This document shows positions 3,687-22,593 of a DNA stretch of 38,359 bases, one piece after another (the first letter of the stretch is position 1; each line of letters starts with the position of its first letter). Both the position numbers and the translations under genes were made by a program. The notes beneath the pieces are model-generated. The model saw nothing but the letters and a program-made list of their open reading frames with translations. It ran no database searches and had not been told where the DNA came from. Source of the stretch: a virus; the IMG/VR virus record IMGVR_UViG_3300031999_000091, positions 1 to 38,359 of that record; one strand, 5' to 3'.

Positions 3687-4013
3687 GTGGGCCTCGAACT
3701 GGGCCGCGTTGACCTGTCAACAGGCGTGCGCGTTCTCGTTGCCTGCCAGATATGCGGCACTCCGTACGGCATCAGCCCTCGGACTCTCCGAGGGATGGCT
3801 CAGGCGAAGCGGCTGCCGATCTGCCGCACTTGCCGCAGGCCGCGTCTAGTCTCCCCGAAAGCCACGATGGATCATCGGAAGTTCTGGCTCGATAACTACA
3901 CGATCAGGGAGATCGTCGACATGGCAGAGGAGATGTGGGGGCCGCGCGACAACTGGAAACCCGGCGAGGTCGCCGCCGTCCACGACCCCGACAGTCTGCT
4001 GCCCGTCGCATGA
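3687..4013 (+). CDS. zinc-ribbon protein (108 aa)
   Basis: The GTG start lies 4 nt after the terminase stop. Two CxxC knuckles, Cys20/Cys23 (CQICG) and Cys46/Cys49 (CRTCR), form a canonical zinc ribbon. A basic linker and an acidic C-terminal half (IREIVDMAEEMWG) follow. Position after the terminase suggests a role with nucleic acid, but nothing in the sequence settles this. The stop overlaps the ATG of the first glycosyltransferase. Confidence 0.6.
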   Translation: MGLELGRVDLSTGVRVLVACQICGTPYGISPRTLRGMAQAKRLPICRTCRRPRLVSPKATMDHRKFWLDNYTIREIVDMAEEMWGPRDNWKPGEVAAVHDPDSLLPVA

Positions 4014-4690
4014 TCCATCCGGTCGCCGTCATCATCCCGGTACTCGGGCGTCCCGAACGCGTCGAACCGCTCCTGTCGTCCCTGTACGGCTCCGAGAGAG
4101 ACGTCGAACTGCGTCCCCTGTTCGTCGTATCACCGGGCGACGAGGCCGAGGAGAGCGCCGTACGCGAGTCGGGAGCCGACTGGATGCTCATGCCGAAGAC
4201 CCGCGAGCCGGGTGACTACGCCCGCAAGATCAATCGTGCGTTCGTGTCGGCCTGGGAGAACGGAGTCGAATGGGTGTTCATGGGAGCCGACGACCTCTGC
4301 TTCTGCGAAGGATGGGCTGACGTCGCCCTCGAGGTCGCTGCTGCTACGCCGACGGCAACCGTCATCGGAACGAACGACCTCGGGAACCCTGCCGTCACGA
4401 CAGGCCAGCACGCGACGCACTCGCTCGTGCGCGGCAGCTACCTCGAGGCAGGCACCATCGACGAAACGGGAAAGCTGCTGCACGAGGGCTACCGTCACAA
4501 CTGGGTAGACAACGAGTTCGTCGCGACCGCCCGCCACCGAGGAGTCTTCGTCTTCGCCGCAGGATCTTACGTCGAGCACCTTCACCCCGCCTGGGGAAAG
4601 GCGGAGGACGACGCCATCTATCAGCTCGGCCTCGCTGACTTCAACGACGACAGACTCCTGTTCCGCAATCGCGAAAGCCTGTGGGCGTGA
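4010..4690 (+). CDS. GT2-like glycosyltransferase (226 aa)
   Basis: The start is the ATG overlapping the previous stop. An N-terminal IIPVLGRPERVEPLLSSL is the classic first strand and helix of a GT-A fold. A metal/nucleotide-binding acidic cluster follows at 92-95 (GADD), and NEF/HLHPAW near the C-terminus could form the acceptor site. It would transfer a sugar from a nucleotide donor. It is the first of six sugar genes in a row with overlapping starts. The acceptor is unknown; a virion protein is plausible. Confidence 0.75.
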   Translation: MIHPVAVIIPVLGRPERVEPLLSSLYGSERDVELRPLFVVSPGDEAEESAVRESGADWMLMPKTREPGDYARKINRAFVSAWENGVEWVFMGADDLCFCEGWADVALEVAAATPTATVIGTNDLGNPAVTTGQHATHSLVRGSYLEAGTIDETGKLLHEGYRHNWVDNEFVATARHRGVFVFAAGSYVEHLHPAWGKAEDDAIYQLGLADFNDDRLLFRNRESLWA

Positions 4691-5304
4691 ACGTCTCCGT
4701 CATCATCGGCTGCCACGGCGCAACCGACTGGGCTGACCTCGCGTGGTCGCGTGCCTACCCGTCAGCCATCGGCCAGGGAGCGAACGAGGTGCTCGTGTCG
4801 TTCGAGAAGAACGGGACGATCGCTTCCGCCCGCAACGCCGGAGCCGCAGAGTCGAAGGGCGAGTGGCTCATATTCCTCGACGCCGACGACGAGCTGGCAC
4901 CCGGATACATCGCCGCCATGTTCTCAGCGTCGCTGCGTGAAGGGAACGAGGCGCTGCTTGCCCCGGCCGTGTCGTACTGCGTACTCGGCTACCCGCCGCA
5001 AGAACCGAAGTTCTGGCGGAACGGAGATGCCGACCGCCTCATCTCTGGAAACTGGTTGCTGATCGGCACGGCAGTTCACCGTTCGATATTCGAGGCGGCA
5101 GGAGGTTTCCACGAATGGCCGATCTACGAGGACTGGGATCTGTGGCTGCGCTGCCTCGCCGCAGGAGCGAACCCCGTGAAAGTTCCCGAGGCCGTCTACC
5201 TCGCGCACGTCAACAGCGACTCCCGCAACAAGCGGCTGCGTCACGACGAGCGCGTCAAGATCCACCACGAGATCCTCCGGGCCAATCATCCCGAGCTGTA
5301 CTGA
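4687..5304 (+). CDS. GT2 glycosyltransferase (205 aa)
   Basis: I chose GTG 4687 because it overlaps the previous TGA (GTGA), like its neighbours; GTG 4681 would add two residues. The protein has VSVIIGCHG, then a donor-site pattern (SARNAGAAESKGEW) and the DxD-like DADD at 65-68 (FLDADDEL), then the EDWDLWLR motif (Glu148, Asp149) that usually supplies the catalytic base in GT2 enzymes. This is the most canonical GT2 of the set. The product acceptor is unknown. Confidence 0.85.
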   Translation: MNVSVIIGCHGATDWADLAWSRAYPSAIGQGANEVLVSFEKNGTIASARNAGAAESKGEWLIFLDADDELAPGYIAAMFSASLREGNEALLAPAVSYCVLGYPPQEPKFWRNGDADRLISGNWLLIGTAVHRSIFEAAGGFHEWPIYEDWDLWLRCLAAGANPVKVPEAVYLAHVNSDSRNKRLRHDERVKIHHEILRANHPELY

Positions 5305-5305
5305 C

Positions 5306-5929
5306 ATGCACCTTCTCACCGTCGTCGTCTCCCGCGACCGCTTGCCGTTCCTGAAAGAGACGATCGCCACGTTTCAGGAAACCTGCACGATGCCGTATGA
5401 CCTCGTCATCGTCGATAACGCCTCCGAGCCTGAGACTCGCGAGTGGATCGTCCGGTCGGGAATCACGGCGATCCTGCTGCCTCGAAACCTCTACCCCGGT
5501 GCGGCCTGCAACCTCGGGTTCGGACTCAGGTCGCCGAAGACGACGCACCTTCACCGTTCCGACAACGACATGCGTTTCCTTCCCGGCTGGGCCGACCGGG
5601 TGCTAACCGTGTTCGAGCAGAACAAGAACGTCGTGCAGGTCAGCCTACGGACGAACGAGCAGGAGCCTGCAACCGACGCGGTCGGAGGAAACATGGTCGT
5701 GAGCCGATCGGTGTTCGACGACGGCATCCGATACACCGACGAACCCTGGGACTCGGTGCCGTGGGAGGACGGGCTGCTCACTCAACATATCGTCGAGAGC
5801 GGAGGACTGTGGGCACGCGTCGGAGCCGTCTCAACAATCCATCTCGGAGATCCGCCCGACTTCTCAGATACGTACTATCGTGAGACGTACACGATCAGGG
5901 GATTGGAAGTTCCTGCCGATGAGCGTTGA
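5306..5929 (+). CDS. GT2 glycosyltransferase (207 aa)
   Basis: The ATG lies 1 nt after the previous stop. The N-terminus (LTVVVSRDRLPFLKETI, LVIVDNAS) matches the GT2 nucleotide-binding half. SDND at 85-88 takes the place of the DxD motif, and PWED at 152-155 is a likely catalytic acid/base position. The C-terminus ends in a strand-rich tail. It is the third member of the glycosyltransferase run and overlaps the fourth by 11 nt. Confidence 0.8.
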   Translation: MHLLTVVVSRDRLPFLKETIATFQETCTMPYDLVIVDNASEPETREWIVRSGITAILLPRNLYPGAACNLGFGLRSPKTTHLHRSDNDMRFLPGWADRVLTVFEQNKNVVQVSLRTNEQEPATDAVGGNMVVSRSVFDDGIRYTDEPWDSVPWEDGLLTQHIVESGGLWARVGAVSTIHLGDPPDFSDTYYRETYTIRGLEVPADER

Positions 5930-6524
5930 AGTCTCAATCGTCATACCGACCGTCGATGGCCGGGAACGATGGCTCGAGCTGTGCGTGCAATCGTACGAGC
6001 GCACTCTCGCCGACGTCCCTCATAACATCACGATCATCCGTAACCGCAAGACCTGCGGCGAAGCATGGAACGAGGGCGTCGCCGACATGATGGGAGCCAA
6101 GTTCGTCCATCTGACGGCCGACGACATCGTGGCGCACGACGGCTGGTGGGAGGCAGGGCTGGCACGAATATGGAACGGCGGCATCCCTGCTGCCCGCATC
6201 CTTCACGGCGACGGCACTCTGCAGTCGTGCGGCGACGCCGAGGACAGACCGGAAGGCTGGGCGTCGAAAGACGGGTACGGCGACGGACGCTTCCCGTCAC
6301 GCATACCGCTCCTTCCCGCCGCGCTCGCAGAACGCATCTTCCCGATACCGCCGATCCACTACTACACCGACAACATCGTCTCCGACCGCGCGAGGACGCT
6401 CGGCTGGGATTCGATCGTCACTCGCGACTACCTGTTCACCCACTACCTCGCAGGCGAAGGACGCATCGACTGCCTCGCCGAAGACGGCCTCGTGTACGTC
6501 GCGCATGGCGGCTGGCATCCGTGA
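5919..6524 (+). CDS. GT2-like glycosyltransferase (201 aa)
   Basis: I chose ATG 5919, which places VSIVIPTVDGRERWLEL right at the N-terminus as in the other copies; an upstream ATG at 5880 would add 13 residues inside the previous gene. ADD at 67-69 (HLTADDIV) is the acidic cluster. The region HYYTDNIVSDRARTLGW is a plausible acceptor/catalytic segment. The stop overlaps the GTG of the GT17 gene. Confidence 0.75.
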   Translation: MSVEVSIVIPTVDGRERWLELCVQSYERTLADVPHNITIIRNRKTCGEAWNEGVADMMGAKFVHLTADDIVAHDGWWEAGLARIWNGGIPAARILHGDGTLQSCGDAEDRPEGWASKDGYGDGRFPSRIPLLPAALAERIFPIPPIHYYTDNIVSDRARTLGWDSIVTRDYLFTHYLAGEGRIDCLAEDGLVYVAHGGWHP

Positions 6525-7357
6525 CGACGTGGTCGCTCTCGACGTTCAACAATGAGCTAGACATTCTCGAGATACGGCTCGCGGAGCTGGACGACGTCGT
6601 AGACATATTCGTGATCGGCGAGTCGCGTCTCACGCAGACCGGGCAGACGAAGCCGCTCGTGTTCCTCGAGAACGTCGAACGGTTCGAGAGGTGGATGCCG
6701 AAGATCCGCTATCTCGACATCGACCTCGACGCCTGCCACGGAGACTGGGCACGCGAGTACATGCAACGCGACATGCTCGGCCGAGGACTCGACGGCCTCG
6801 AGGACGACGACCTCATCCTTCTATCCGACGTCGATGAAATACCTCGGGCGTCGCTCGTGGCTGACATCCTGAACGGACGGCATCCGCTCCCGATGTCGGT
6901 GCACTTCCCGATACACGTCTACCGTCTCGACTGGCGGTGGCCCGAAGCCGAGACGGGATTCTGCCGCTGCCGCTTCTTTCACGGCTACGAGCTTACGTGG
7001 GACGCCCACCGAGGCATTTGGTCTGGATGCGGAGTCATCACCGACAGCGAGGCGGCGTGGGCGAGGCCGTCGCTCATCAACAACATCGTGGGTGAGTACG
7101 GGTGGCACTTCTCATACCAGGGTGACGCGCGGCAGATCCAGACGAAGATCGGAAACATGGCCGACAACTGGGTACGCTCGAATCCCGGCTGGGCTGACCT
7201 CGACTGGATCAACGAGAGCATCGACACGGGACGCGACGTGTTCGACCGGGACTTCCGTCAAGCCGAACCCGTCCCTCTCGAATGGCTGCCCGAGTACGTG
7301 CAGCAGAACGCTGACAGGTTCTCCCATCTCATGCGCCCTGTAGGATCGCGGTCGTGA
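6521..7357 (+). CDS. GT17-family glycosyltransferase (278 aa)
   Basis: The GTG overlaps the previous TGA (GTGA). The N-terminus, FNNELDILEIRLAELDDVVD followed by FVIGES, is the hallmark of family GT17 (N-acetylglucosaminyltransferase III-like). SDVDE at 102-106 is the metal-binding acidic motif. The domain fills nearly the whole protein. GT17 enzymes add GlcNAc in beta linkage to mannose in eukaryotic glycans; in phages their acceptors are mostly unknown. The much longer upstream reading in the same frame (from 6065) is a shadow of the preceding gene. Confidence 0.85.
   Translation: MTTWSLSTFNNELDILEIRLAELDDVVDIFVIGESRLTQTGQTKPLVFLENVERFERWMPKIRYLDIDLDACHGDWAREYMQRDMLGRGLDGLEDDDLILLSDVDEIPRASLVADILNGRHPLPMSVHFPIHVYRLDWRWPEAETGFCRCRFFHGYELTWDAHRGIWSGCGVITDSEAAWARPSLINNIVGEYGWHFSYQGDARQIQTKIGNMADNWVRSNPGWADLDWINESIDTGRDVFDRDFRQAEPVPLEWLPEYVQQNADRFSHLMRPVGSRS
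7341..7356 (+). promoter_or_regulatory. possible leaderless start: TAGGAT box 7 nt before GTG
   Basis: TAGGAT at 7341-7346 lies 7 nt before the GTG at 7354. It sits inside the end of the GT17 gene and would allow the epimerase to be transcribed separately. No GCCGC element occurs at the usual distance, so it is weaker than the best examples. Confidence 0.45.
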
Positions 7358-8289
7358 GAATACTCGTCACCGGGGATCAGGGATTCATCGGAACGTGGCT
7401 GTCGCGCGAGCTTCGGCAGCGAGGCCATGTCGTTGACGGCATCGACCATCATGCCGACGGCTGCATCGGAGGCCCGAACGACCTCCGTGTTCCCGGCGTC
7501 GCGCACAATGTCATCCGAGACAGGAACCCCGACGTCGTCGTTCATCTCGCCGCGAAAGTCGGGCGTCTGTTCGGCGAGGAGAACCCTGCCGACACGATCG
7601 ACGACAACGCGGGAATGACGGCGCTCGTCGCTCAGGCCTGCGGCACGTTCGGCGCTCGCCTCATCTACGCGTCCACGTCCGAGGTGTACGGAGACAACGG
7701 AGCCGAAGTGTGCGACGAGGTATACGGCCCGTTCGTCCTCCCGCACAACATCTACGGCCTGTCGAAACGATGGGGGGAGGAGGTCGCTGAGCTGTACGCG
7801 CCGGACGAGCTGACGATACTCCGGTTCTCGATGCCCTACGGCCCAGGACTCCCCGCAGGCCGAGGACGTGCCGCCATCATCAACATGCTCTGGCAGGCCC
7901 GCACGCATCAGACGATCACCGTCCATCGAGGGTCGGAACGGTCGTGGTGTTGGATCGGCGACACCGTCCGGGCAGCTCGCATCGCGATCGAGGAAACCGA
8001 CGGCGGTGCCTTCAACATCGGCCGCGACGACAATCCTGTGCCGATGACGATGGTCGCGCATATGGCTTGCGTCATCGCGAACACCGACGGGCAAGACCTC
8101 ATCGAGCATGTCGATGCGCCAGAAGCTCAGACCGTCGTGAAGCGCCTATCGACCGACGCGATCCGCAAGCTCGGCTGGGAGCCGCTCGTCGATCTCGAGG
8201 ACGGGATGGAACGCACCATGTACGAATGGGTCGAGCTGCTCAACGAAGACGGCTCTGCATCCGCGAGAGCGCTCGCGACACTTCGATGA
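7354..8289 (+). CDS. NAD-dependent sugar epimerase/dehydratase
   Basis: The 311-residue protein is an extended short-chain dehydrogenase. It has the N-terminal Rossmann glycine motif TGDQGFIG (Gly7, Gly10, Gly13), an acidic residue pair DGIDH, and the catalytic Ser (ASTSEVYG, 106-113) plus Tyr134-x3-Lys138 (YGLSK). The C-terminal domain is the usual substrate-binding region. It would convert a nucleotide sugar, possibly by 4-epimerisation, dehydration or reduction, into a donor for the neighbouring transferases. The precise substrate cannot be told. Confidence 0.88.
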   Translation: MRILVTGDQGFIGTWLSRELRQRGHVVDGIDHHADGCIGGPNDLRVPGVAHNVIRDRNPDVVVHLAAKVGRLFGEENPADTIDDNAGMTALVAQACGTFGARLIYASTSEVYGDNGAEVCDEVYGPFVLPHNIYGLSKRWGEEVAELYAPDELTILRFSMPYGPGLPAGRGRAAIINMLWQARTHQTITVHRGSERSWCWIGDTVRAARIAIEETDGGAFNIGRDDNPVPMTMVAHMACVIANTDGQDLIEHVDAPEAQTVVKRLSTDAIRKLGWEPLVDLEDGMERTMYEWVELLNEDGSASARALATLR

Positions 8290-8606
8290 CGACGCCGACA
8301 CCGTTCGTGTTCCTGCTGATCTGTCTCGCGGCGTTCCGCACTACCCGCATCGTCGGATGGGACACCGTGACCGACGTGTGGCGGCGCAGGCTCACGGGAC
8401 TCGGAGACTGGGGCGGCGGCGAGCTGCCTCCCGACTACAGGCGAGGCCTCGACTCTTTCCTCCACTGTCCGTACTGCCTCGGGTTCTGGATCTCGCTCGT
8501 GTGGTTCGCGTTCTACGAGATCGACCCGACTTCCGCCACGATCGTCGCTTGGCCGCTCGCCGTCTCCGCAGCAATCGGCATCATCGCCAAGCAATTCGAC
8601 CCGTAG
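8286..8606 (+). CDS. DUF1360-like small membrane protein (106 aa)
   Basis: The ATG overlaps the epimerase stop (ATGA). It has an N-terminal hydrophobic segment (FVFLLICLAAF) followed by RTTRIVGWDT. A central CPYCLGFWISLVWF combines a CxxC knuckle with the start of a second membrane segment, and a third hydrophobic stretch lies near 88-101. The C-x2-C-x-GFW pattern recalls DUF1360 proteins, found in phages and bacteria. The role is unknown. It is the last gene before the promoter at 8615. Confidence 0.65.
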   Translation: MTTPTPFVFLLICLAAFRTTRIVGWDTVTDVWRRRLTGLGDWGGGELPPDYRRGLDSFLHCPYCLGFWISLVWFAFYEIDPTSATIVAWPLAVSAAIGIIAKQFDP

Positions 8607-8614
8607 ATTGCCTG

Positions 8615-8643
8615 TTGACGCCGCTCAGAATCACCCTGATACT
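8615..8643 (+). promoter_or_regulatory. host-type promoter P1 (TTGACG-17-GATACT)
   Basis: The -35 is TTGACG (8615-8620) and the -10 is GATACT (8638-8643), with a 17-bp spacer. The leader shares CAGTCAGC (8648-8655) and GACTCCCAGGAGGAGAC (8665-8681, containing the ribosome site) with two other promoters at 14976 and 37596. Confidence 0.8.
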
Positions 8644-8684
8644 TAGGCAGTCAGCCAATCACAAGACTCCCAGGAGGAGACGAA

Positions 8685-9817: not shown

Positions 9818-11737
9818 GTGGGCGTCATCTCATGGATGAACGGCTCCGGGTGGACGCAGAAGCCGTCCGGTAGCGTCCATTCGCCAGTCGGCCGCTCGAT
9901 CACCGCCGCTGGCGTGAAGATCGAAACGAAGAACGCAGCGTCGATGCGTCGGCTCATCCAGCCGTGGCAGGACAGGGCGCTCAGCTACTACGACCTCGTG
10001 GGAGAGTGCTGGTTTGCCTCCCAGTTCTACGGTCGGTCGCTCGCTCAGATCCGGCTGTTCGTCGGAACGATGGACGAAGAAGGACAGGTCGAGGAGGTCG
10101 AGGGGCCGAACGACGCGACGGCGCTGCTTGACCGTATCCGCGATCCCGGAGGAACCGGGCGCACGCATCTGCAGGCGTCGTACGGACGGCTCATGTTCAT
10201 CACCGGGGAGGGCTACCTGACCGTCACTCAGCCCGAGGGCGAGGAGGAACGCTGGGAGTTCCTGTCGTCGGACGAGCTGCGTGTCTCATCGAACAACGCG
10301 TACGTTCGGTACATCGCGCCGTCGCTCGCGGCCGTCGAGCTGCAGGGCGTCCCTGACGATCAGTACGTGCCTCTCGACGGGGATCAGGCTGCCGTCTACC
10401 GCCTGTGGCGCAAGCATCCTCGCTACTCGTCGCTCGCCGACGCTCCGATGCGGGCCGTCCTCGATCTGTTCGAGGAGCTGCTGCTGCTGCAGCTCGCAGT
10501 CCTGTCTCGCGTCAAGTCGCGGCTGTCTGCCGCAGGCCTGCTGATCATTCCCGAGGAGATCACGCTCGTCTCCCAGGACTCACAGACCGCTGACGAGGAC
10601 ATGACGGAAGACCCGCTGCTCAATCAGCTCATCGGTGCGGCGCAGGCCGCGATACAGGAGCCAGGGACAGCCGCCGCCGTCATTCCCGTCATCCTGCGGG
10701 CGCAAGGCGAATGGATCGAGAAGGTCAGGCATCTGCAGTTCTTTGATCCGGGTCAGGCCTACCCTGAAACGGGACTACGCATGGAGGTCATCAAGCGGAT
10801 CGCTATGGGCCTCGATCTTCCGCCCGAGATCCTGCTCGGCATGAGCGACGCGAACCACTGGACGTCATGGCAGATCGACGAGCAGACCGCGAAAGCCCAT
10901 ATCTTCCCGATCTGCCAGCAGTTCGTGGACGACCTCACTTCCGCCTACCTGCGGCCCGCTGCTCGCGACGAGGGGATCGACGGATGGGAGAACCTTGTTG
11001 TCGGCTACGACCCGGCTGCTCTGCTCGTCGCTCCCGACCGGGCGAAAGACGCGGCGACGATGTTCTCCCTCGGAGAGCTGTCGGGCGAATCGTTGCGCGA
11101 GGCAGGAGGGTTCTCGTCCGACGAAGACGAGCCGACCGAGGAGGAGCGGTGGAGGTACCTCGGCGCGAAGATCGGCGACGCGTCGCTCGCCATGTATGGC
11201 ATCCCGCGCCTCAACAGCCAGTCAGAGCTTGAAACCGCTCCCGGCGTGATCGACGCCGGAACAGAATCACCGGATAGCGGCACCCCCCCGTCCGCTCCGG
11301 TGAAGGGGCCTCCCCCGGCCATGCCAGAGGCGTCGCCAGTAGTGGCCGCGTCAGGGCCGCGCGATGACCTACTCGCGCGGGTACTGGGAGCCGCCGAGTT
11401 TGCCGTCATACGCAGTCGTTCGCTGGCCGGGGCGAGGCTCCGTACTTCCGCGAAGAAGATCCCCGAGTTCACGGCCATGATCGAGAAGCTGCCGAACGGC
11501 TCGGTCGCTGCTGCCCTCAACATTCAGAACGTACATGCCCTCGGACACTCCGAAGCGGGACTCGTGAAGGGAGCGTCGGCCGAGCTTGCCGACGTCCTGA
11601 CCATCATGGGGATAGACCCCGCGCTTGCCGACGCCATCGGCACTCAGGTCGAGCGTCACGCAGCGCAGACGCTCTACCTCGAGGTCGCACCGCCTTTGCC
11701 TGACGGCTTCGCAGCCATGCTGAACGGGAAGCCATGA
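9818..11737 (+). CDS. portal protein
   Basis: The 639-residue protein has a typical portal organisation. An N-terminal alpha/beta region carries LIQPWQDRALSYYDLVGECWF, and the central core carries YRLWRKHPRYSSLADAPMRAVL and SRVKSRLSAAGLLIIP. The clip/stem-like segment is QFFDPGQAYPETGLRMEVIKRIAMGLDLPPEILLGMSDANHWTSW, where the final part is the most diagnostic. A Pro/Ser-rich linker at about 480-525 precedes a helical C-terminal tail. The start is GTG 3 nt after the previous stop. It forms the 12-fold ring through which DNA enters and leaves the head. It overlaps the MuF-protease gene by 4 nt. Confidence 0.87.
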   Translation: MGVISWMNGSGWTQKPSGSVHSPVGRSITAAGVKIETKNAASMRRLIQPWQDRALSYYDLVGECWFASQFYGRSLAQIRLFVGTMDEEGQVEEVEGPNDATALLDRIRDPGGTGRTHLQASYGRLMFITGEGYLTVTQPEGEEERWEFLSSDELRVSSNNAYVRYIAPSLAAVELQGVPDDQYVPLDGDQAAVYRLWRKHPRYSSLADAPMRAVLDLFEELLLLQLAVLSRVKSRLSAAGLLIIPEEITLVSQDSQTADEDMTEDPLLNQLIGAAQAAIQEPGTAAAVIPVILRAQGEWIEKVRHLQFFDPGQAYPETGLRMEVIKRIAMGLDLPPEILLGMSDANHWTSWQIDEQTAKAHIFPICQQFVDDLTSAYLRPAARDEGIDGWENLVVGYDPAALLVAPDRAKDAATMFSLGELSGESLREAGGFSSDEDEPTEEERWRYLGAKIGDASLAMYGIPRLNSQSELETAPGVIDAGTESPDSGTPPSAPVKGPPPAMPEASPVVAASGPRDDLLARVLGAAEFAVIRSRSLAGARLRTSAKKIPEFTAMIEKLPNGSVAAALNIQNVHALGHSEAGLVKGASAELADVLTIMGIDPALADAIGTQVERHAAQTLYLEVAPPLPDGFAAMLNGKP

Positions 11738-14112
11738 ACGCCCGCACGCTCAATCGTAGGCTCAAGCGAGGGCGAGCGCTCGCGATGACGCACGAGGCAG
11801 ACCTGATGGTCGAGTACTCGCGTCTGCTTCGCCGGATGGCTCTCGACATCTCAGAGGCGTTCCGCCAGCAGGCGACGTCTCATCTGACTGCAGGAGCCAC
11901 ACCCACCGATCCGCCGTCGTGGACGCCGCCGCCCGAGGGCGACATCATGGGAGGCCCGTCCGCCAGAGCGGCAGCTTCCGTCCGTCCGATACAGACCAAG
12001 ATGCTGCAGGCGGCGGTGACGGGAGGGCTGGCAGGCGTCGCGTTCGACGTGACCGCGCCGATGAATCAGAGGCTACTTGACCAGCTCGGAAAGCGTGCCG
12101 AGGGGATCGAAGGAGGATTCAGGCAGGCGGTCGCAACGTCGATAGCGCAGTCGTTCGACGAAGGCCTTTCCATCCCTGACGCGGCGTCAGCACTCCTGAC
12201 GGCCACGGAGTCGATTACGGTGTCACAGGCGGTCATGCTTGCCCGCACCGACCTGATCGGCCTCGCGAACGGAGGCAGCTCCATCGCGGTAGACGCCGTG
12301 AACGCTTCGGCGGAAGAAGCGGGCGAGCCGATGTTCCTAACGAAGTCGTGGCTCGCGACGATGGACGACCGCACTCGAGAAACGCATGTCGAGGCCGACG
12401 GCCAGGAAGTGCCGATCGACGCGACATTCACGGTCGGAGAAGACCAGCTCGACTATCCCGGCGACCCGGAAGGATCGGACGCCGAGGTCATCAACTGCCG
12501 CTGCACCGTCCTGTACGACGAAGCACCGTCATCCGATTCGGCGGGTGGCGACGAGCTTGCCGCCTCTGCATCTAACCTGGGAGACACGATGATCGTCACA
12601 AGCGAAAGCACCTCGACCACGAACAATTCGCTGAGCGCCGGAAGCGTCACCATCACGATCGACGACGCCTCCGTTGAAACATCGATGGCCGCTGTGCCGA
12701 CCGCGTGGAAGGCCGTCCTCGCTCTCGAGGGAGTCCCAACGATCGACGGGCGGTACTTCCCGCTCGACTCCCTAACGTGGCGCGATCTCCCGCTGTCCCT
12801 GCTCGCTCAAACCGAAACGGCTCCCGGTCACGACGGAGCCGAGGTGTGCGGGCGCATCGACCGGATCTGGCGGGAGCAGACGGGAGACGACACCGCCTCG
12901 ATCATGGGCGAGGGCGAGTTCACCGGGGAGGAGGGATGCGAGGTCGCGGCGATGGTCGCCGACCTGTCCCTCACGGGCCTGTCCGTCGACGTTGCCGTAG
13001 GATCGACCGCCCTGCGTGATCCGTCCACGGGCGAGATCGTCAGCGAGGACAGCATCGACCTCATGGATCTACTGCTCGGCACGAACGCCTATCAGACCGT
13101 CATGTACGACGGCGTCATCGGAGCCGCGACCGTGTGCGCGTTCCCCGCGTTCGACGACGCGAAGATCGCGGTCGTCGCCACGGCAGGCCAGTGGAGTCAC
13201 GACGACCGCAGTCACCGGATGGTCGTGGTGATGACGAACTCGAAGATTCAACTGGTCGCCGAGGCTCTGTCGGCATCCGCCGCAGGCATGGCCCCGATGC
13301 ACCCTCCGGCCGACTGGTTCCAAGATCCTGCCCTCGACCGTCTGACCGCACTTACCGTCACTGATGAGGGCCGTATCGTCGGCCATCTCGCCGGATGGGA
13401 CACTTGTCATATCGGTTCGCCGGGAGGGCAGGGCACTTGCACCGTGGCTCCCGACTCGAAGTCGGACTACCGATACTTCCACCTGGGAGAGCTGACGACA
13501 GCCGAGGGCGACGACATCTCAGTCGGCAACATCACGCTTGACACCGGGCACGCCGGACTCGGCGCAAGCCGACGGTCGTCCCTGAATCACTACGACAATA
13601 CGGGCAGCGTCGTCGGCGACGTCCGTGTTGGCGAAGACGCCTTCGGAATATGGGTGGCAGGCGCAGCCCGACCGGAGGCGACACCGACCTCCATCCGCAA
13701 GCTGCGGTCGTCGTCGCTGTCGGGAGACTGGCGCACCATCGACGGGCATCTCGAGCTGATCGCCGCCCTGTGCGTCAACGTGCCGGGATTCCCGATCCCG
13801 CGAGCGCAAGCCGCGATCGCCGCTTCCGGCGTCACCGCGATCGTCGCCGCAGGAATCGTTGTCGCCGCGAGCGTCTGCCCCGAGTGCGGAGCCTCCGTCC
13901 CGATGGGCGCAGACGAATGCCCCGCGTGCGGCATGAAGATGAAGATGTCAGCGTTCGCCGCCGTGACCTGCTCGCACTGCGGAGCCGAGAACGTCGAAGG
14001 AGCCGAGGTGTGTGCCGACTGCGGCCAGAAGATGCCGGGAGCCGACGGCATGAGCTTCGCGATGATGGCTGACATGATGGGTGCGATGGCGGCGTTCGTC
14101 GGCATCGAATAA
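11734..14112 (+). CDS. MuF-like head protein fused to capsid maturation protease and two zinc ribbons
   Basis: The 792-residue protein has three parts. Residues 1-260 are a MuF (SPP1 gp7-like) module ending in the conserved pattern RETHVEADGQEVPIDATF and NCRC (254-257). Residues about 310-690 resemble the maturation protease of actinobacteriophages, including LEGVPTIDGRYFP, GEGEFTGEEG, DGRIVGHLAGWDTCHIG, and LSGDWRTIDGHLELIAALCVN. Residues 713-766 carry two tandem zinc ribbons with Cys pairs at 715/718, 729/732, 746/749 and 760/763. MuF proteins enter the head near the portal; the protease would trim the capsid N-terminus. The ATG overlaps the portal stop. Neither a catalytic residue nor a self-cleavage site can be fixed by eye. 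Confidence 0.85.
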   Translation: MNARTLNRRLKRGRALAMTHEADLMVEYSRLLRRMALDISEAFRQQATSHLTAGATPTDPPSWTPPPEGDIMGGPSARAAASVRPIQTKMLQAAVTGGLAGVAFDVTAPMNQRLLDQLGKRAEGIEGGFRQAVATSIAQSFDEGLSIPDAASALLTATESITVSQAVMLARTDLIGLANGGSSIAVDAVNASAEEAGEPMFLTKSWLATMDDRTRETHVEADGQEVPIDATFTVGEDQLDYPGDPEGSDAEVINCRCTVLYDEAPSSDSAGGDELAASASNLGDTMIVTSESTSTTNNSLSAGSVTITIDDASVETSMAAVPTAWKAVLALEGVPTIDGRYFPLDSLTWRDLPLSLLAQTETAPGHDGAEVCGRIDRIWREQTGDDTASIMGEGEFTGEEGCEVAAMVADLSLTGLSVDVAVGSTALRDPSTGEIVSEDSIDLMDLLLGTNAYQTVMYDGVIGAATVCAFPAFDDAKIAVVATAGQWSHDDRSHRMVVVMTNSKIQLVAEALSASAAGMAPMHPPADWFQDPALDRLTALTVTDEGRIVGHLAGWDTCHIGSPGGQGTCTVAPDSKSDYRYFHLGELTTAEGDDISVGNITLDTGHAGLGASRRSSLNHYDNTGSVVGDVRVGEDAFGIWVAGAARPEATPTSIRKLRSSSLSGDWRTIDGHLELIAALCVNVPGFPIPRAQAAIAASGVTAIVAAGIVVAASVCPECGASVPMGADECPACGMKMKMSAFAAVTCSHCGAENVEGAEVCADCGQKMPGADGMSFAMMADMMGAMAAFVGIE

Positions 14113-14297
14113 TGGCCGCGCACCTTCCGTTCGCTGCGCCGAGGGAAGTGAAGCTCGTCGGACGAGGGTGCGGGGTTATCGCCGTATGGCTGTGCCGGAA
14201 AGACGAGACGATCATCGTGTCACCCGAGCGGCTGTCGAAGATCGCCAAGATGCACAAGGTCGCGATCGAAGACCTGTGGTGGATCATCCCCGAGTGA
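14112..14297 (+). CDS. small hypothetical protein (61 aa)
   Basis: The ATG overlaps the MuF-protease stop (TAATG). The basic N-terminal part (PREVKLVGRGCGVIAVWLCRKDETIIV) is strand-rich, and the helical segment ERLSKIAKMHKVAIEDL has the look of a small winged or ribbon-like fold. The family is not recognised. Its stop overlaps the next GTG, so it is embedded in a coupled gene string and is likely real. Confidence 0.6.
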   Translation: MAAHLPFAAPREVKLVGRGCGVIAVWLCRKDETIIVSPERLSKIAKMHKVAIEDLWWIIPE

Positions 14298-14956
14298 AGC
14301 TCGGCGTCTCGGTTCAGCACCATCCTTCCCGCGCCTACCTTCTCGCGCGGCTGCTGCCTCGCCTCGGCACCGACTACCGAGTCGTCATCGACCCGATGGC
14401 GGCGCATCCGTTCCGGTCAGCTTGGCACGCCTACTTCGCGTGCCTCGAGTCTCTCGCGCTCGGCGACACGCATCTGCTCATCATTCAGGACGACGCGATC
14501 CCGTGCGACGGATATATCGACGCCCTGCACTCCGCCATCTCATCCCAGCCCGACCGTGTCATCGTGACCTGCGTCTGCGGCAACGCGAAACGCAACTGCC
14601 GCCGCATGTACCTCGCGTGCGACGCGGGCTACTCGTTCGCCGAGCTGGACGCGAACGAATGGTGTCCGACGGTAGCGACCTGCTACCCGGCCGAGGTCGT
14701 CTACCGCCTGCGTGACTGGCTTGCCCGTCGGACGATGCCCGAGTTCCAACAGGCCGACGACTCCGTGATCGGAGAGTTCCTTCTCTCATCCGGCATCGGT
14801 GCCCTGATGACCGTTCCTTCGCTCGTCGATCATCCCGACGACGCCGTGTCGCTCGTCGCGCCCGACGACACCCGCTACGGCCTCTCGCCCGAACGGTCGG
14901 CCTGCTGCTACATCGGCGACTGCGATCCGTCATCAATCGTGTGGAGAGCGGCTTGA
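14294..14956 (+). CDS. glycosyltransferase-like protein (220 aa)
   Basis: The GTG overlaps the previous TGA (GTGA). The N-terminus (KLGVSVQHHPSRAYLLARLL) resembles a GT-A nucleotide-binding half. The motif LLIIQDDAIPCDGYIDAL (Asp66, Asp67) looks like the acidic DxD-type motif in GT25/GT2-like enzymes. A second acidic patch, QQADDSVIGEFLL, could be catalytic. Multiple cysteines (50, 71 and others) are unusual for the set. The acceptor is unknown. It is the seventh sugar gene in the first half of the window and lies between the head genes. Confidence 0.65.
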   Translation: MKLGVSVQHHPSRAYLLARLLPRLGTDYRVVIDPMAAHPFRSAWHAYFACLESLALGDTHLLIIQDDAIPCDGYIDALHSAISSQPDRVIVTCVCGNAKRNCRRMYLACDAGYSFAELDANEWCPTVATCYPAEVVYRLRDWLARRTMPEFQQADDSVIGEFLLSSGIGALMTVPSLVDHPDDAVSLVAPDDTRYGLSPERSACCYIGDCDPSSIVWRAA

Positions 14957-14975
14957 AACAGCGGGAAATAGGGTG

Positions 14976-15004: not shown

Positions 15005-15045
15005 TAGTCCAGTCAGCCAGCCAAGACTCCCAGGAGGAGACAGAA

Positions 15046-15831: not shown

Positions 15832-17562
15832 ATGGATCTGTTTCCCGCTCTCCCTGAGAGCCTCCCGACCGAGAGTGCCGCGCTCGCGGCCCTGCTCGAG
15901 GAGCTGAAGTCGCGACTGGCAGAAGTGCTGGCCGCGTCGAAGCCCGGTGCGACACCCGAGCAGCGCGAGATCATCGGTGACCTCACGACCGAGGACATTC
16001 TCGCCCAGTTCGCGACGGCGACCGTCCAGATCGCCGAGATCGAGACGACCCTCTCCGAGACGATCGCTGCCGAGGAGCTGTTCGTGAAGACGCTCACCGA
16101 CGGCGCCGCATCGGTCGGCGTTCTCGACACGGCCGAGGAGATCGTCGCCGAGGCAGCCGAGGACTTCGCTGCCGAGGCCGAGGAGCCGTCCGACGACGAC
16201 GACGCGGCAGAAGCCGTGATCGCCGACGAGGTCGCAATCCTCGCTTCCGCCGACACGAAGACCATCGTTCCGCGCAGGCCTCCCCCGGCCGCGTCGAAAG
16301 ACCATCAGCCGATCGAGAATGTCCTTCCGGGTGCCGCGCTCGTCGCGTCCCTCGGCATCGACGGCGTCGAAGGCGGAGCATCGCTGAACCGACTCGAGCT
16401 GGCGTCGGCCATCATGCGGGCACGCCGCCAGTACACGTCTGCCCCGGCAGGATTCGAGGAGAAGGCCGTAGTCGCAACCGCGTCGTGGAACCTTCCCCCC
16501 GAGCGCGTCCTCGACGGCGTCGACATGATGACGGACTGGGGCAAGATCGAGGCCGTTCGCGGCCCCGGCGCATGGGGAGCAACCCCCGAAGGCGTCCCGG
16601 CACTCGTCGCATCGGGAGGCCTTTGCGCCCCGGTGAACAACTATTACGAGCTGCAGATGCTCAGCACGGCCGAGCGGCCCGTTCGCGCGGGACTCGTCGG
16701 GTTCCAGGCGACACGCGGCGGCATCAACGCTGCGATGCCTCCCACGCTCCTGTCGGGTGTCGATACGGCAGTCGGCTACAAGACCGAGGCCCAGGATGGC
16801 GGCGGCGGAACGCTGGCGAACAAGACGTGTCAGACGATTCCGTGCCCGACCTTCCATGAGGTCGACATCGAAATGATCTACCACTGCATCACCGTCGGCA
16901 ACATGGTCAGCCGCACGTTCCCTGAGCAGGTCGCTCAGTTCCAAGACCTCGTGATGGCCGCTCACTCGCGGCTAGCGGAAGGCCTGCTGCTGAACGCCCT
17001 GGCAGCCGGATCGACTGCCGTCACGCAGGCGGCTGTGAACGGTTCCGTGTCCACGCTGCTCGGCGGCATCCTGCAGGCCACCGCAGGGTTCCGGTCGAGG
17101 CATCGCACGTCGCCCGACCTTCGCCTCCGGGCGATCTTCCCGGCATGGGTGCTGCAGCATCTCGTCCTCGATCTCGTTCGACAGCAGTTCGATCGGTTCA
17201 GCCGTGACGAGGCGGGCGTCGTCGCCCTTCTCAGAATGTGCGGCATCGAGCCGTCGTTCACGCTCGACTCCGAGACAGGCGGCGGCATGGTGTTCGGCGC
17301 GCAGAACGCAGGCGCGCTGCTCGAGTTCCCCGACACCGTCAAGTGGTTCCTGTATCCCGAGGGCGGGTGGCTCTACCTCGACGGCGGCGTCCTCGAGCTG
17401 GGCATCGTCCGCGACTCCACGCTGAACAGCACGAACGACTACACCATCTTTGGTGAGACGTTCGAGGCAGCAGCCGGAGTCGGCATCGAGTCCCTCTACA
17501 TCACGACCACGTTCTGCCCGAACGGTCAGACCGCAGTTCCGGGCACGGCCCTGACCTGCTAA
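15832..17562 (+). CDS. major capsid protein with scaffold-like N-terminal domain
   Basis: The 576-residue protein starts with about 150 residues of acidic, Ala/Glu-rich helix (LLEELKSRLAEVL, EEIVAEAAEDFAAEAEEP), as expected for a delta/scaffold domain that the maturation protease removes. A linker rich in Pro/Arg (RRPPPAASKD) follows at about 148-157. The rest is a capsid-like region (TDWGKIEAVRGPGAWG, RTFPEQVAQFQDLVMAAHSRLAEGLLLNAL, LRAIFPAWVLQHLVLDLVRQQ) ending in strand-rich segments. HK97-like fold is inferred. The ATG has AAGGAG. It would be synthesised as a precursor with scaffold built in, so no separate scaffold gene is needed. Confidence 0.85.
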   Translation: MDLFPALPESLPTESAALAALLEELKSRLAEVLAASKPGATPEQREIIGDLTTEDILAQFATATVQIAEIETTLSETIAAEELFVKTLTDGAASVGVLDTAEEIVAEAAEDFAAEAEEPSDDDDAAEAVIADEVAILASADTKTIVPRRPPPAASKDHQPIENVLPGAALVASLGIDGVEGGASLNRLELASAIMRARRQYTSAPAGFEEKAVVATASWNLPPERVLDGVDMMTDWGKIEAVRGPGAWGATPEGVPALVASGGLCAPVNNYYELQMLSTAERPVRAGLVGFQATRGGINAAMPPTLLSGVDTAVGYKTEAQDGGGGTLANKTCQTIPCPTFHEVDIEMIYHCITVGNMVSRTFPEQVAQFQDLVMAAHSRLAEGLLLNALAAGSTAVTQAAVNGSVSTLLGGILQATAGFRSRHRTSPDLRLRAIFPAWVLQHLVLDLVRQQFDRFSRDEAGVVALLRMCGIEPSFTLDSETGGGMVFGAQNAGALLEFPDTVKWFLYPEGGWLYLDGGVLELGIVRDSTLNSTNDYTIFGETFEAAAGVGIESLYITTTFCPNGQTAVPGTALTC

Positions 17563-18499: not shown

Positions 18500-19180
18500 A
18501 TGGCTCAGAACCCGACCGTCTGCGGCGTCAGCATCCTGATCTGCCGCGTCCGGGCGACCCTACTCGACACCGACGGCGAGGTACATGTCGGCCCGAACAA
18601 TTCGTACGTGACAGACAATCCGATCCGCGTCACGCTCACGCCCGTAATCGAGTCAGGAAAGGACTCGACGCTCAAGGGTGGGTGCGATTGCATCGTCGCG
18701 GACTACCGTGGCCCCGACCTGCTCAAGAGGTTCGACTTCGAGTTCGACATCGCGACCGTCGAGCCTGCCCTCTACTCGCTCATGCTCGGCTCGACGCTCA
18801 TCAGCGACACGTCAACGTCTCCGGTGCCGATCGGCAACTGGTGGCCAGCCCAGGTTGGCTGCTCGAAGACGCCGCCGCCGCCGATCGCGTTCGAGTTCTG
18901 GAGTCAGGTGTGGGACGGGCAGGCGCAGAACGCGTCATGGCCGTATATCCACCACGTCTACCCGTACACGCTCTGGCAGATCGGAGCGCAGACGTACGAA
19001 GACGACTTCGCTCAACCGAAGCTCACGGGTTTCTCCCGCACGAACGCCCAGTGGGGACACGGGCCGTATGGCGATCAGCCCGATCCCACGCCCATCGACT
19101 CGCCGGGTGGTCAGTTCTACACGGCGACCGCACTACCCACCGCTGTCTGCGGCTACAAGACCGTCGCTGTGAGCAGCTAA
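18500..19180 (+). CDS. probable major tail protein (226 aa)
   Basis: The ATG follows AAGGAGG (18484-18490). The sequence opens with CGVSILICRVRATLLDTDGEV and has alternating beta strands (RFDFEFDIATVEPALYSLM), like tail-tube proteins of siphoviruses. The very acidic N-terminal half and a Trp/Tyr-rich C-terminal half (WPYIHHVYPYTLW) are notable. The assignment rests on size, strand content and abundant expression signal; no such gene occurs in the usual slot between 29866 and 29933. A head-decoration role is an alternative. Confidence 0.6.
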   Translation: MAQNPTVCGVSILICRVRATLLDTDGEVHVGPNNSYVTDNPIRVTLTPVIESGKDSTLKGGCDCIVADYRGPDLLKRFDFEFDIATVEPALYSLMLGSTLISDTSTSPVPIGNWWPAQVGCSKTPPPPIAFEFWSQVWDGQAQNASWPYIHHVYPYTLWQIGAQTYEDDFAQPKLTGFSRTNAQWGHGPYGDQPDPTPIDSPGGQFYTATALPTAVCGYKTVAVSS

Positions 19181-19216
19181 CCCGGTACATCACCGGAGTA
19201 AGAAGGAGGAAAGAGC

Positions 19217-19732
19217 ATGGCAGCCAAGACCTATGCGGTGATGAACGGGGCAGCACCCGGCGCAGCCGCAGCGGTACCGATCACGACGGGTACCGCGATC
19301 AAGACCATGATCCAGCTCGCGACGAACGCAACGACTCCGTCGATGCGGTTCGTCGAGTGGTGGGTCGAGTACGACGGCTCGACGGCGGCAACGCCGATCA
19401 AGACCGAGCTGATCCGTCACACCACGGCTCCGCAGACGACGTTGACCGCGTACGTCACGGCGGACATCGCACGGGTGAACGACCCGCAGGCCCCCGTCTC
19501 CGGCCTGCAGCTCGGGACGGCGCTCTCCGGGTTCTCGAACACCACGACCGAGGTTGCCCCGACGGGTACCCCCGTGTCGCTCGAGACGCACTACGTTCCG
19601 CCGACCTCCGGCATCTATGTCCAGTTCCCGCTGGGCCGCGAGCCGGAGATCCAGGTCGCAGCGTTCGCACGCATCCGCACCACGGCTGCAGCGGCGGTCA
19701 ACTGCTACGCAGGATGCATGTGGGAGGAGTAG
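19217..19732 (+). CDS. virion structural protein (171 aa), unassigned
   Basis: The ATG follows AAGGAGGA (19203-19210). Composition is Ala/Thr-rich with regular strands (MRFVEWWVEYDGS, ATPIKTELIRHTT, PEIQVAAFARIRT), consistent with a beta-sandwich virion protein. The C-terminus contains CYAGCMW. The gene is the last before the strong terminator at 19752, in the same unit as the capsid and two structural genes. Decoration or tail function cannot be separated. Confidence 0.55.
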   Translation: MAAKTYAVMNGAAPGAAAAVPITTGTAIKTMIQLATNATTPSMRFVEWWVEYDGSTAATPIKTELIRHTTAPQTTLTAYVTADIARVNDPQAPVSGLQLGTALSGFSNTTTEVAPTGTPVSLETHYVPPTSGIYVQFPLGREPEIQVAAFARIRTTAAAAVNCYAGCMWEE

Positions 19733-19783: not shown

Positions 19784-19791
19784 CCTCCCGA

Positions 19792-20061: not shown

Positions 20062-20064
20062 GCA

Positions 20065-20079
20065 TATACTCATCACGTG
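20065..20079 (+). promoter_or_regulatory. leaderless start: TATACT box 6 nt before GTG
   Basis: TATACT (20065-20070), then CATCAC, then GTG at 20077. There is no Shine-Dalgarno. CCCGC lies 14 nt upstream, a one-base variant of GCCGC at the conserved offset. Confidence 0.65.
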
Positions 20080-20601
20080 CAGGGGGATATGTTCCATAGG
20101 TTCAGCGGCGTGTCGTTCGGAGGAGTGGCGTGCGCCCAGTATTGGTGTGACTTCGTTCTGTGGGAGACGGTGCTGAACGCGAACCCGGAGCTGACGGGGA
20201 TCGTCGAGATCGGCACGTTCATGGGTGGGTTCTCCCACTACCTCAACGCTCAGGCGCAGGCTCGAGGAATGAAGTTCGTGACCTACGACGCGATCGTTCC
20301 CGAGGCCACCATCCCTGAGTTCACGAGACTCGACGTGTTCGCATATCCGGGCCGCGTGAAGGACTGGGCCGAAAGCTGCGGCGGGCCTGTCATCCTGTTC
20401 TGCGACGGAGGCAACAAGCCGCGCGAGCTGAGCCTGTTCCCGCCCCTCATGCCCGAACACTCGGTGTACCTCGTCCACGACTGGGGAACCGAGATGCTCG
20501 GATCGGACGTGCCTGAGTTCCTCGACGAAATATATGGCGACTACTGCGACTCCATCGGCTCCGTGACACGAGTGTTCAGAATGAGAGAGGAGACAGAATG
20601 A
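20077..20601 (+). CDS. SAM-dependent methyltransferase-like protein (174 aa)
   Basis: Motif I is IVEIGTFMGGFSHYL at 42-56 (glycine-rich loop EIGTFMGG), and Asp71 follows in the next strand (FVTYDAI). A second acidic motif, FCDGGNK (Asp110), and HDWG at 134-137 match class I folds related to cephalosporin hydroxylase/CmcI-type proteins. The substrate is unknown; sugar methylation is possible given the neighbouring transferases. The start is leaderless GTG. The stop overlaps the next ATG by 4 nt. Confidence 0.65.
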   Translation: MQGDMFHRFSGVSFGGVACAQYWCDFVLWETVLNANPELTGIVEIGTFMGGFSHYLNAQAQARGMKFVTYDAIVPEATIPEFTRLDVFAYPGRVKDWAESCGGPVILFCDGGNKPRELSLFPPLMPEHSVYLVHDWGTEMLGSDVPEFLDEIYGDYCDSIGSVTRVFRMREETE

Positions 20602-21296
20602 CAAGCCTGTCGTGGCCCGACCCGAGGGACGTAGACCGCCTTCGAGCTTTGACCTTCGTCCCTGGCCGCAAGCCGATGGGACGCAGCCAGCAGTTCCCGA
20701 CGGCGGCAGCGAACCATCTCGAGGACGCTCGGGAGATCGTGGCGCTCCGCACGGCGCTCAGCGAGGCGATCATGTTCATCGACGGACTGACGCTCACGGC
20801 TCAACGGATCAGCAGGACGAACGAGGAGCTGCAAGTTCGGGCGGATCTGACCGGGCTGCTGCGGCAGGCGGCTGACATGCTGCGAGCCTCGATTGCCTTC
20901 GAGCGGCCTTCAACCCTGCTGCACTACGAGGCGCTCGTGGACGACGACATGCCCGAGCAGCAGGAGGAGGCCAGCGTCGTAGCCAGTCCCGACCTGCCTG
21001 ATCAGCAGGGCGCTGGTATGCCTGGGAAACATGAGGATACGCCCGGTGCTTCCGCTGTCGCGGAACGGATCGAAATATGGGTGGACACGCTCGGCCTATG
21101 GTGGTGGCGCGTCGTCGCTGACGACGGCAAGATCCTCGTGAAAGACTCCGGTGTGAGCGAAACCTCGGTCGCCGCCGCATATCAAAGTCGCTATCCCGAG
21201 CTGACCGTCTACGTCATCCCTCGCGAGCTGGACGACTCTCGCAACATCGACCAATATGGCCCGCCTCGGCGGATCTGGAATCGAGGAGAAGCATGA
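20598..21296 (+). CDS. unrecognised protein with helical N-terminus and small C-terminal domain (232 aa)
   Basis: Residues 40-100 are mostly helical with hydrophobic periodicity, suggesting a coiled coil. An acidic, Ser/Ala-rich linker (about 115-155) follows. The final 75 residues (IEIWVDTLGLWWWRVVADDG, KILVKDSGVSETSVAAAYQS) resemble a small beta-hairpin/helix repeat like DUF1508, but this is only a shape resemblance. It overlaps both neighbours by 4 nt and sits in the accessory operon. Confidence 0.55.
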   Translation: MTSLSWPDPRDVDRLRALTFVPGRKPMGRSQQFPTAAANHLEDAREIVALRTALSEAIMFIDGLTLTAQRISRTNEELQVRADLTGLLRQAADMLRASIAFERPSTLLHYEALVDDDMPEQQEEASVVASPDLPDQQGAGMPGKHEDTPGASAVAERIEIWVDTLGLWWWRVVADDGKILVKDSGVSETSVAAAYQSRYPELTVYVIPRELDDSRNIDQYGPPRRIWNRGEA

Positions 21297-21979
21297 GCGG
21301 AACGGTAGGAGTCATCGCTGACGCAGCGGCCCGGTACACGATGTTCTGGCAGTGCCTCACGACTCTAAGGACGCCCGTCAATACGGCGGTCGATGTCATG
21401 GTCGGATCAGATCGGGCGGTCGGAAGAAACAAGGTTGTCGAGCGGTCGCTCGAACGTGGCTCCGAATGGTGCTTCTTTGTTGACGACGACCATACGTTCC
21501 GACCGGAGATCCTTACGTGGCTGCTGCATCACGACAAGCCGATCGTCGGCGCTCTGTACCTGCAGCGCACGACTCCGTTCCTGCCGATCGCGATGGGAAC
21601 CCGTGGCGACGCAGGATGGTGGCCGCTCGATCTCGAGGACGCTCCCGAGCATGGACTCGTCGAGGTTGAAGGCATCGGCACCGGAGGACTCCTGATTCGA
21701 TCTGAGGTGTTCCATGCGCTCAGAGAGTCCGACCCTTCCGCCCTGTTCTTTCGCCATACCACCGAGCAGTCTGAGGATCTGCACTTCTGCTCACGCGTTC
21801 GTGACGAACTGGGATGGCCGATCTTCGTTGACATGGACTCGCGGCTCGGCCATCTCGGGCCTGCCGTTGTCGTCCCGAACTTCAATGAGGACATCGGCGA
21901 GTGGGTAGCAGGCCTGTCGTTCGGAGCGTCCTGCTACGTGGAGCTGCCGATACTCAAGCCGCTCGTCGAAGACGAATGA
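21293..21979 (+). CDS. GT2-like glycosyltransferase (228 aa)
   Basis: The ATG overlaps the previous stop. WCFFVDDDHTFRPEIL (VDDDH at 63-67) is a typical donor/metal site, GGLLIRSEVFHAL is the following strand-helix, and SEDLHFCSRVRDELGWPIFVD (Glu161, Asp162) is the characteristic C-terminal motif, with His187 (RLGHLG) as a likely metal ligand. This arrangement recalls Anp1/GT2-related enzymes common in phages. The start region lacks the usual first-strand VSVIIP motif. The acceptor is unknown. Confidence 0.78.
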   Translation: MSGTVGVIADAAARYTMFWQCLTTLRTPVNTAVDVMVGSDRAVGRNKVVERSLERGSEWCFFVDDDHTFRPEILTWLLHHDKPIVGALYLQRTTPFLPIAMGTRGDAGWWPLDLEDAPEHGLVEVEGIGTGGLLIRSEVFHALRESDPSALFFRHTTEQSEDLHFCSRVRDELGWPIFVDMDSRLGHLGPAVVVPNFNEDIGEWVAGLSFGASCYVELPILKPLVEDE

Positions 21980-22593
21980 CGGTCGTCTCCGTCCTGACGC
22001 CCACCATCACCGGGCGAGAGTGGTTCCTCGATCGGTGCAAGCGCAGCGTGGCAGCGAACACCTATGAAGGCACGATCGAGCATGTCGTCGTTGACGGCGA
22101 CGGGCTGACGGCGACGGCAGCGTTCGCGAAGGCGCTCGAGGAATCGACGGGCGACTACATCACGCCTGTCTCCGACGACGACTGGATTGCCCCTCACGCG
22201 ATCGAGGTTCTCGCCCACCATCTCGACAAGCATGATGTTGCTTTCGCCCGCACGATAATCGTGAGTCCGTCGAACACTCGGCTCGTCGATATGGGCGGTG
22301 CCGTGATGTGGAGGCGCACGCTGACCGACCGGGTCGGAGGGTTCGACATGCAGTGGTCTTTCGCTGGCGACACCGACCTGTACGCGAGGTTCGCGATGTG
22401 CGGAGCGAGAGCCGCCTACCATCCCGAGCCGCTCTACTTCTTTACCGAACACGCAGACCACGGAAGCCACGTTCATCGCGAAGAGCTAGAGGAGGAGCTG
22501 GGCCGAATCTACGCTCGGTATCCCGGCGCTCTCCCAGCGTTGGCGGCTGTAAAGAGGATCGGCATGTTGGTGCCGCCATCACCCGTAGACTGA
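21976..22593 (+). CDS. GT2 glycosyltransferase (205 aa)
   Basis: ATG 21976 overlaps the previous stop (ATGA). VSVLTPTITGREWFLDRC begins the GT-A fold, SDDDW at 66-70 is the donor motif, and GGFDMQWSFAGDTDLYAR (GDTD 131-134) is the canonical acceptor/base region. This looks like a complete, functional GT2 enzyme. It is the last of nine sugar-related genes. The TAGACT box for the LamG gene lies inside its 3' end. Confidence 0.85.
   Translation: MTVVSVLTPTITGREWFLDRCKRSVAANTYEGTIEHVVVDGDGLTATAAFAKALEESTGDYITPVSDDDWIAPHAIEVLAHHLDKHDVAFARTIIVSPSNTRLVDMGGAVMWRRTLTDRVGGFDMQWSFAGDTDLYARFAMCGARAAYHPEPLYFFTEHADHGSHVHREELEEELGRIYARYPGALPALAAVKRIGMLVPPSPVD

Follow-up and report, generated by a model that had tools for sequence, protein, structure and literature searches.

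The window analysed here is the whole 38,359-base sequence of IMG/VR virus record IMGVR_UViG_3300031999_000091, from an uncultured tailed phage. Nine sugar-modifying genes are spread among its structural genes, namely eight predicted glycosyltransferases (GTs; GT_A to GT_E, GT_G, GT_J and GT_K) and an epimerase (Epi_F), and their number and coordinates agree with a first-pass annotation of the same sequence (Table 1). Genes A to F, comprising four GT2-like genes, a GT17 gene and the epimerase, are packed between the terminase and portal genes, with neighbours that overlap or nearly touch, and this block was supported by Pfam, PHROG and model data. The placement of a further transferase after the MuF-protease gene, and of two more before a lectin-like gene, was likewise borne out. 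The acidic catalytic motif that had been claimed for each transferase was found in all eight, and the Pfam cut-offs were passed by B, C, E, F and K.

Table 1. Features of the window, with supporting matches (E values)
Feature	Position	Strand	Support
GT_A, GT-A-fold glycosyltransferase, motif GADD	4010..4690	+	phrog_14945 (glycosyltransferase) 5e-6; model
GT_B, GT2 glycosyltransferase, motif DADDE	4681..5304	+	PF00535 4e-10
GT_C, GT2 glycosyltransferase, motif SDND	5306..5929	+	PF00535 2e-9
GT_D, GT2-like glycosyltransferase, motif TADD	5919..6524	+	PF00535 0.09; homologues up to 1.6e-6
GT_E, GT17-family glycosyltransferase, motif SDVDE	6521..7357	+	PF04724 4e-24
Epi_F, extended short-chain dehydrogenase/reductase nucleotide-sugar epimerase/dehydratase	7354..8289	+	PF01370 2e-37
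Leader copies (three)	8601-8686, 14961-15047, 37581-37667
Portal protein	9818..11737	+	phrog_776 2e-103
MuF / head-maturation protease fusion, C-terminal zinc ribbons	11734..14112	+	phrog_859 5e-114; phrog_18402 3e-68; PF04233 1.5e-6; PF13240
GT_G, Che8 gp110 / cluster O gp36-family glycosyltransferase, motif QDDA	14294..14956	+	phrog_854 (glucosyltransferase) 5e-13; model
Major capsid protein, ends ...ALTC	15832..17562	+	phrog_777 7e-69
Major tail protein, C-terminal Ser codon 19175-19177	18500..19180	+	phrog_792 (major tail protein) 3e-22
H, putative methyltransferase	20077..20601	+	S-adenosylmethionine (SAM)-type motif by eye
Gene of unknown function between H and J	20598-21296
GT_J, Anp1/GT2-like glycosyltransferase, motif VDDDH	21293..21979	+	PF03452 1e-4; homologues up to 2e-6; phrog_1574 6e-11
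GT_K, GT2 glycosyltransferase, motif SDDDW	21976..22593	+	PF00535 3e-8
Concanavalin A/laminin-G-like (lectin-like) protein, directly after K	22598..23311	+	PF13385 (Laminin_G_3) 1e-8

The AlphaFold model of GT_A (predicted local distance difference test score [pLDDT] 91.0) has a GT-A fold, and its top Foldseek match was SpsA (E 4e-8), followed by other GT2-like proteins. By sequence, the PHROG match was the only support for GT_A itself, while its relatives match PF00535. GT_E was assigned to the GT17 family from a PF04724 score of 85.7 bits against a curated cut-off of 26, together with its DxD-type motif. No good match to GT_E was found among the phage proteins searched, a related-locus search with its open reading frame (ORF) returned no relative, PF04724 was absent from 17 other related records, and sequence searches of the PDB with E and H gave nothing useful. 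The solved chains nearest to Epi_F were dTDP-glucose dehydratase-related, UDP-glucuronate decarboxylase and UDP-glucose epimerase proteins, with about equal likeness to each. B, C and K also matched models of envelope or exopolysaccharide glycosyltransferases weakly, and the teichoic-acid glycosyltransferase TarP was among the lower structural matches of A and G. These matches would fit enzymes that add sugars to a polymer of the host surface (wall teichoic acid, arabinogalactan or capsule), resulting in superinfection block or lysogenic conversion. Surface polymers of such kinds are possessed by actinobacteria. The earlier argument against envelope modification, that an actinobacterium lacks lipopolysaccharide, does not settle the matter, since other surface glycans exist and the host is itself deduced. 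Against a host polymer, no hydrophobic stretch of membrane-helix strength was present in any of the eight transferases, and the genes of the block included none that looked like a flippase.

Virion-protein glycosylation, which had been the first-pass interpretation, is the best-supported reading of the gene set, because GT_G belongs to the Che8 gp110/Corndog gp38 family and its place beside the capsid gene is widely kept. In single-sequence searches GT_G matched Che8 gp110 (7e-11) and Firecracker gp36 (5e-13), and a profile built from 39 uncultured relatives of GT_G matched the same two proteins at 1e-23 and 5e-19, respectively; they were the sole matches at E <= 0.05 among 992 background ORFs. 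Pfam gave no match for GT_G, and no glycosyltransferase model was matched across the 39 family members. The AlphaFold model of GT_G (pLDDT 94.5) nevertheless has a GT-A fold, with Foldseek matches to mimivirus R655 and human POMGNT1 (E 1e-6 to 6e-6); superposition on the POMGNT1 structure gave a VIA Z score of 15.3 over 197 residues at a root-mean-square deviation of 3.2. The top viral structural match was gp87 of Mycobacterium phage Ardmore, and glycosyltransferases that are viral or act on proteins made up most of the best structural matches (POMGNT1, COLGALT1, mimivirus R655 and Ardmore gp87). Residues R13, Q65, D67, D155, D156, H180 and D182 (window numbering) are invariant in the family. 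In PMC12363180, Che8 gp110 and Corndog gp38 are named as essential for capsid glycosylation, and the accounts of the Che8 and cluster O glycans in PMC11256854 and PMC11600133 agree with this. Corndog gp38 lies at 18907-19527, directly before protease gp39 (PMC4351075), and Firecracker gp36 has the same position and length. This tie of the GT_G family to virion glycosylation speaks against a host polymer as the substrate.

The position of GT_G was examined in 79 loci from viral contigs that carry a homologue, neighbours being taken as the next recognised family. MuF was next upstream in 70 of the 79 and the major capsid protein next downstream in 64, with both in 63. In nine relatives (L004, L006-L008, L011-L014 and L016), the first recognised gene downstream of TerL was GT_A. 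The transferases other than G and A differ from locus to locus. Because the positions of G and A are kept while the others vary, and because E was found in none of the 17 other records, G, and mostly A, look like a core, with B to E, J and K as an exchangeable accessory set. That a position among structural genes is kept in dozens of phages is a further point against modification of a host polymer.

The same conservation bears on DNA as the acceptor. DNA glycosylation is known in metagenomic phages with many glycosyltransferases, and the enzymes could accordingly modify hypermodified bases of the phage DNA, of the hydroxymethyl-pyrimidine or TET type; C5-cytosine methylase genes were indeed present in 7 of 22 related records. 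These methylases are patchy, whereas G is constant. Genes of the thymidylate-synthase family were found in none of the 22 records, most of which are fragments, in a search whose controls worked, and Tet_JBP was matched in none of 18 records in a search run without a positive control. Since there was no thymidylate-synthase-family enzyme and no Tet_JBP match, and since the cytosine methylases are patchy, DNA glycosylation is considered very unlikely.

Mycobacteriophage glycans attach at the C termini of capsid and tail-tube subunits, according to PMC12619734, and for this reason the C termini were read here. In 52 nonredundant loci bearing G, the major tail protein ended in Ser in 43 and in Thr in 7 (50/52 Ser/Thr). 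By comparison, across nine further protein families in these loci, the last residue was Ser or Thr in 10 to 57% of members (TerL, 10%; portal, 15%; major capsid protein, 15%; MuF, 23%; p29004, 57%). Variable residues precede the tail terminus, at which Ser and Thr exchange even where these residues differ. Cultured isolates, for which the presence or absence of the gp110 family was checked over whole genomes, gave a similar picture. With the family, all 10 tail proteins read and 10 of 11 capsids were Ser-ended; without it, the figures were 2/13 and 3/13 (nominal Fisher P values, from lineages that are not phylogenetically independent, of 7e-5 for the tail and 0.001 for the capsid). The clearest contrast was the Sixama/GMA2/Forza/Phendrix clade, which has the enzyme and is nested with good support among enzyme-lacking phages. 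A host-polymer substrate leaves the Ser/Thr pattern of the tail C terminus unexplained, and with the points given above that explanation is judged unlikely.

A closer competitor is that the virion is indeed glycosylated, with the capsid, the lectin-like protein or the repeat protein as main acceptor and the Ser/Thr end of the tail merely inherited. The capsid is reported as an acceptor in Che8 and Corndog, J and K adjoin the lectin-like gene, and the capsids of HK97 and HK022 are Ser-ended in phages that lack the enzyme. The capsid of the window, however, has no terminal Ser, and those of its relatives end mostly in Cys, Asp or Glu, whereas the tail protein keeps Ser or Thr through S-T exchange and varied flanks. 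Actinoplanes phage phiAsp2 has the same tail-only pattern, its tail protein ending in SS and its capsid in CCP. On this basis a different main acceptor is thought improbable, if less so than the alternatives concerning host polymers and DNA. The main acceptor is predicted to be the tail tube, at the C-terminal Ser/Thr of the major tail protein, because the capsid C terminus is not Ser while the tail keeps Ser/Thr. Capsid, tail and repeat proteins had all been considered at first pass; the tail C terminus is now favoured, and the capsid, which lacks a terminal Ser, and the repeat protein are less so. A C-terminal Ser of the capsid was considered as the acceptor in the window lineage and was dropped.

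Several observations weigh against glycosylation of the tail C terminus by GT_G. Two loci bearing G have tail proteins that end in His or Pro, and a tail clade without G is still Ser/Thr-ended in 5 of 16 members. The tail tree offers only three independent contrasts, of which a mean of 2.3 agree and 0 oppose, too few for significance. The capsids of HK97 and HK022 end in GS, so a terminal Ser alone is not sufficient and proves nothing by itself. The capsid of the window ends in ALTC, and only 8 of 62 relatives have a terminal Ser there. The equation of Firecracker gp36 with Corndog gp38 is based on position and length, and the acceptor was read from sequence. With these points taken into account, we assign a probability of about three in four to the reading in which the gene set serves a tailed phage as a module for glycosylating its virion, with GT_G acting on the C terminus of the major tail protein.

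Comparison with known systems is consistent with this assignment. Che8 resembles the window in its GT_G homologue (gp110), in gp108, which matches GT_B weakly (1e-6), and in a tail protein ending in Ser. Its virion glycosylation set is said to be gp108-gp110, as reportedly described by Freeman and colleagues in 2023. These three genes are found at the extreme right of the Che8 genome, whereas the window has its eight transferases among the structural genes; the Che8 capsid and tail proteins both end in GS, unlike the capsid of the window. In cluster O, an O-methyltransferase gene and three glycosyltransferase genes lie between the portal and protease genes (PMC4351075). Corndog and Firecracker of this cluster are thus like the window in having glycosyltransferases between the portal and capsid genes, with an O-methyltransferase nearby. 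Their GT_G homologue is directly upstream of the protease and capsid genes, while GT_G follows the MuF-protease; the window has an extra transferase block between terminase and portal, together with the GT17 gene and the epimerase, and H is not recognisably the O-methyltransferase of cluster O. The Gordonia phages Sixama, GMA2, Forza and Phendrix, as well as phiAsp2, share with the window a homologous tail protein, a gp110-family transferase and a Ser-ended tail, and phiAsp2 also shares a capsid without terminal Ser. In all five the transferase genes come after the head-tail adaptor or tail genes, and in the four Gordonia phages the capsid and a second head protein also end in GS, as does the tail. 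Of the features of Che8/Corndog-type systems, a gp110/gp38-family transferase, accessory transferases in the genome and a Ser-ended tail-tube protein were found in the window; a Ser-ended major capsid protein, which is a pattern seen here and no established criterion, was not.

We propose that GT_G, made with the head proteins, would put the first sugar on the hydroxyl of the C-terminal Ser/Thr of the major tail protein. GT_G is thus predicted to be the initiating virion O-glycosyltransferase, because it is constant across loci and because gp110 and gp38 are reportedly needed. Elongation or branching of the glycan would fall to GT_A and the variable transferases B to E, J and K; Epi_F would supply or alter the nucleotide sugar, and H may cap the glycan by methylation. 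The enzyme activities, their order of action, the acceptor and such roles as particle shielding or surface variation are inferred. The methyltransferase had been placed with the last pair of transferases; its SAM-type motif can be seen, while H has no match in Pfam, in NCBIfam or to RMNT_CmcI (PF04989), and the intervening gene separates it from J and K. Homologues of H were found in loci L144, L155 and L170, close to GT_J genes in the latter two.

An actinobacterium is the likely host, because the portal, capsid and tail proteins most closely resemble their counterparts in actinobacteriophages. The nearest TerL proteins in genome assemblies were on contigs of mixed taxonomy (best, Glaciihabitans, 49%, on a 4.9-kb contig), which may be mis-binned phage contigs, and so the host stays inferred. 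One related locus, L209, is a 19-kb contig of a Gemmatimonadetes metagenome-assembled genome with TerL, GT_A, GT_C and portal in the order of the window; it either hints at a host outside the actinobacteria or is a phage contig that was binned wrongly. Alignment of the capsid protein against genome contigs found no prophage.

Other features were noted in the window and in related phages. The MuF-protease ends in a double zinc ribbon (13876-14037, residues 715-767; PF13240, 2e-10). The repeat protein (24959-27844) has 961 residues and is built of degenerate repeats of about 30 residues (LAYSSRGKPKSRLxxPxVVGPVLARP); it had no Pfam match, and no relative was seen among the related loci. The three leader copies each consist of a TTGAC[AG]-17-GATACT-like promoter, a TTAG...CAGTCAGC stretch and then GACTCCCAGGAGGAGAC immediately before ATG, the promoter of the third copy being TTGACA...TGATATTTA. 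A 17-mer of the leader is identical in all three copies, for which 0.15 matches are expected by chance even allowing 3 mismatches. The leader looks like a repeated promoter-ribosome-binding-site cassette that would drive three separate genes. The repeat (near 8666, 15026 and 37645) had ten matches in viral contigs, mostly in unrelated contexts. The gene behind the third copy (37666-38359), truncated by the contig end, matches Amidoligase_2 (PF12224, 3e-21). In phiAsp2 (NC_005885), positions 28287-31466 hold in a row a glycosyltransferase, a "DNA methyltransferase" noted as an O-methyltransferase, and a gp110-family glycosyltransferase; this set probably serves glycosylation and was mis-annotated as DNA modification. 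Escherichia phage mEp390 (NC_019721), of the HK97 kind, has a gp110-family transferase at 38736-39305 (6e-19), and its tail protein ends in ASGS versus VVTP in HK022. Matches to the family were also counted in other phages of Escherichia, Klebsiella, Serratia and Cronobacter, and about 700 phage records have a gp110 homologue.

Demonstrations of virion glycosylation are so far limited to a few mycobacteriophages, in which the effect studied concerned antibodies. What may be novel here is the Ser/Thr pattern of the tail C terminus in loci with GT_G. Tentatively, and at somewhat less than even odds, the gp110 family may be a widespread class of O-glycosyltransferases acting on phage proteins, with a free C-terminal Ser/Thr of the tail tube, and for some phages also of the capsid, as their recognition site; the initiator would be fixed in the head operon of a large uncultured group, and the elongating enzymes would form an exchangeable cassette that diversifies the sugar coat. 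With the C-terminal pattern, what was a loose guess becomes testable at a single residue in existing isolates (Che8, Firecracker, Sixama, GMA2 and phiAsp2). If true, virion glycosylation would extend widely to uncultured metagenome phages and one would have to ask what purpose a sugar coat serves where antibodies are not an obvious selective force.

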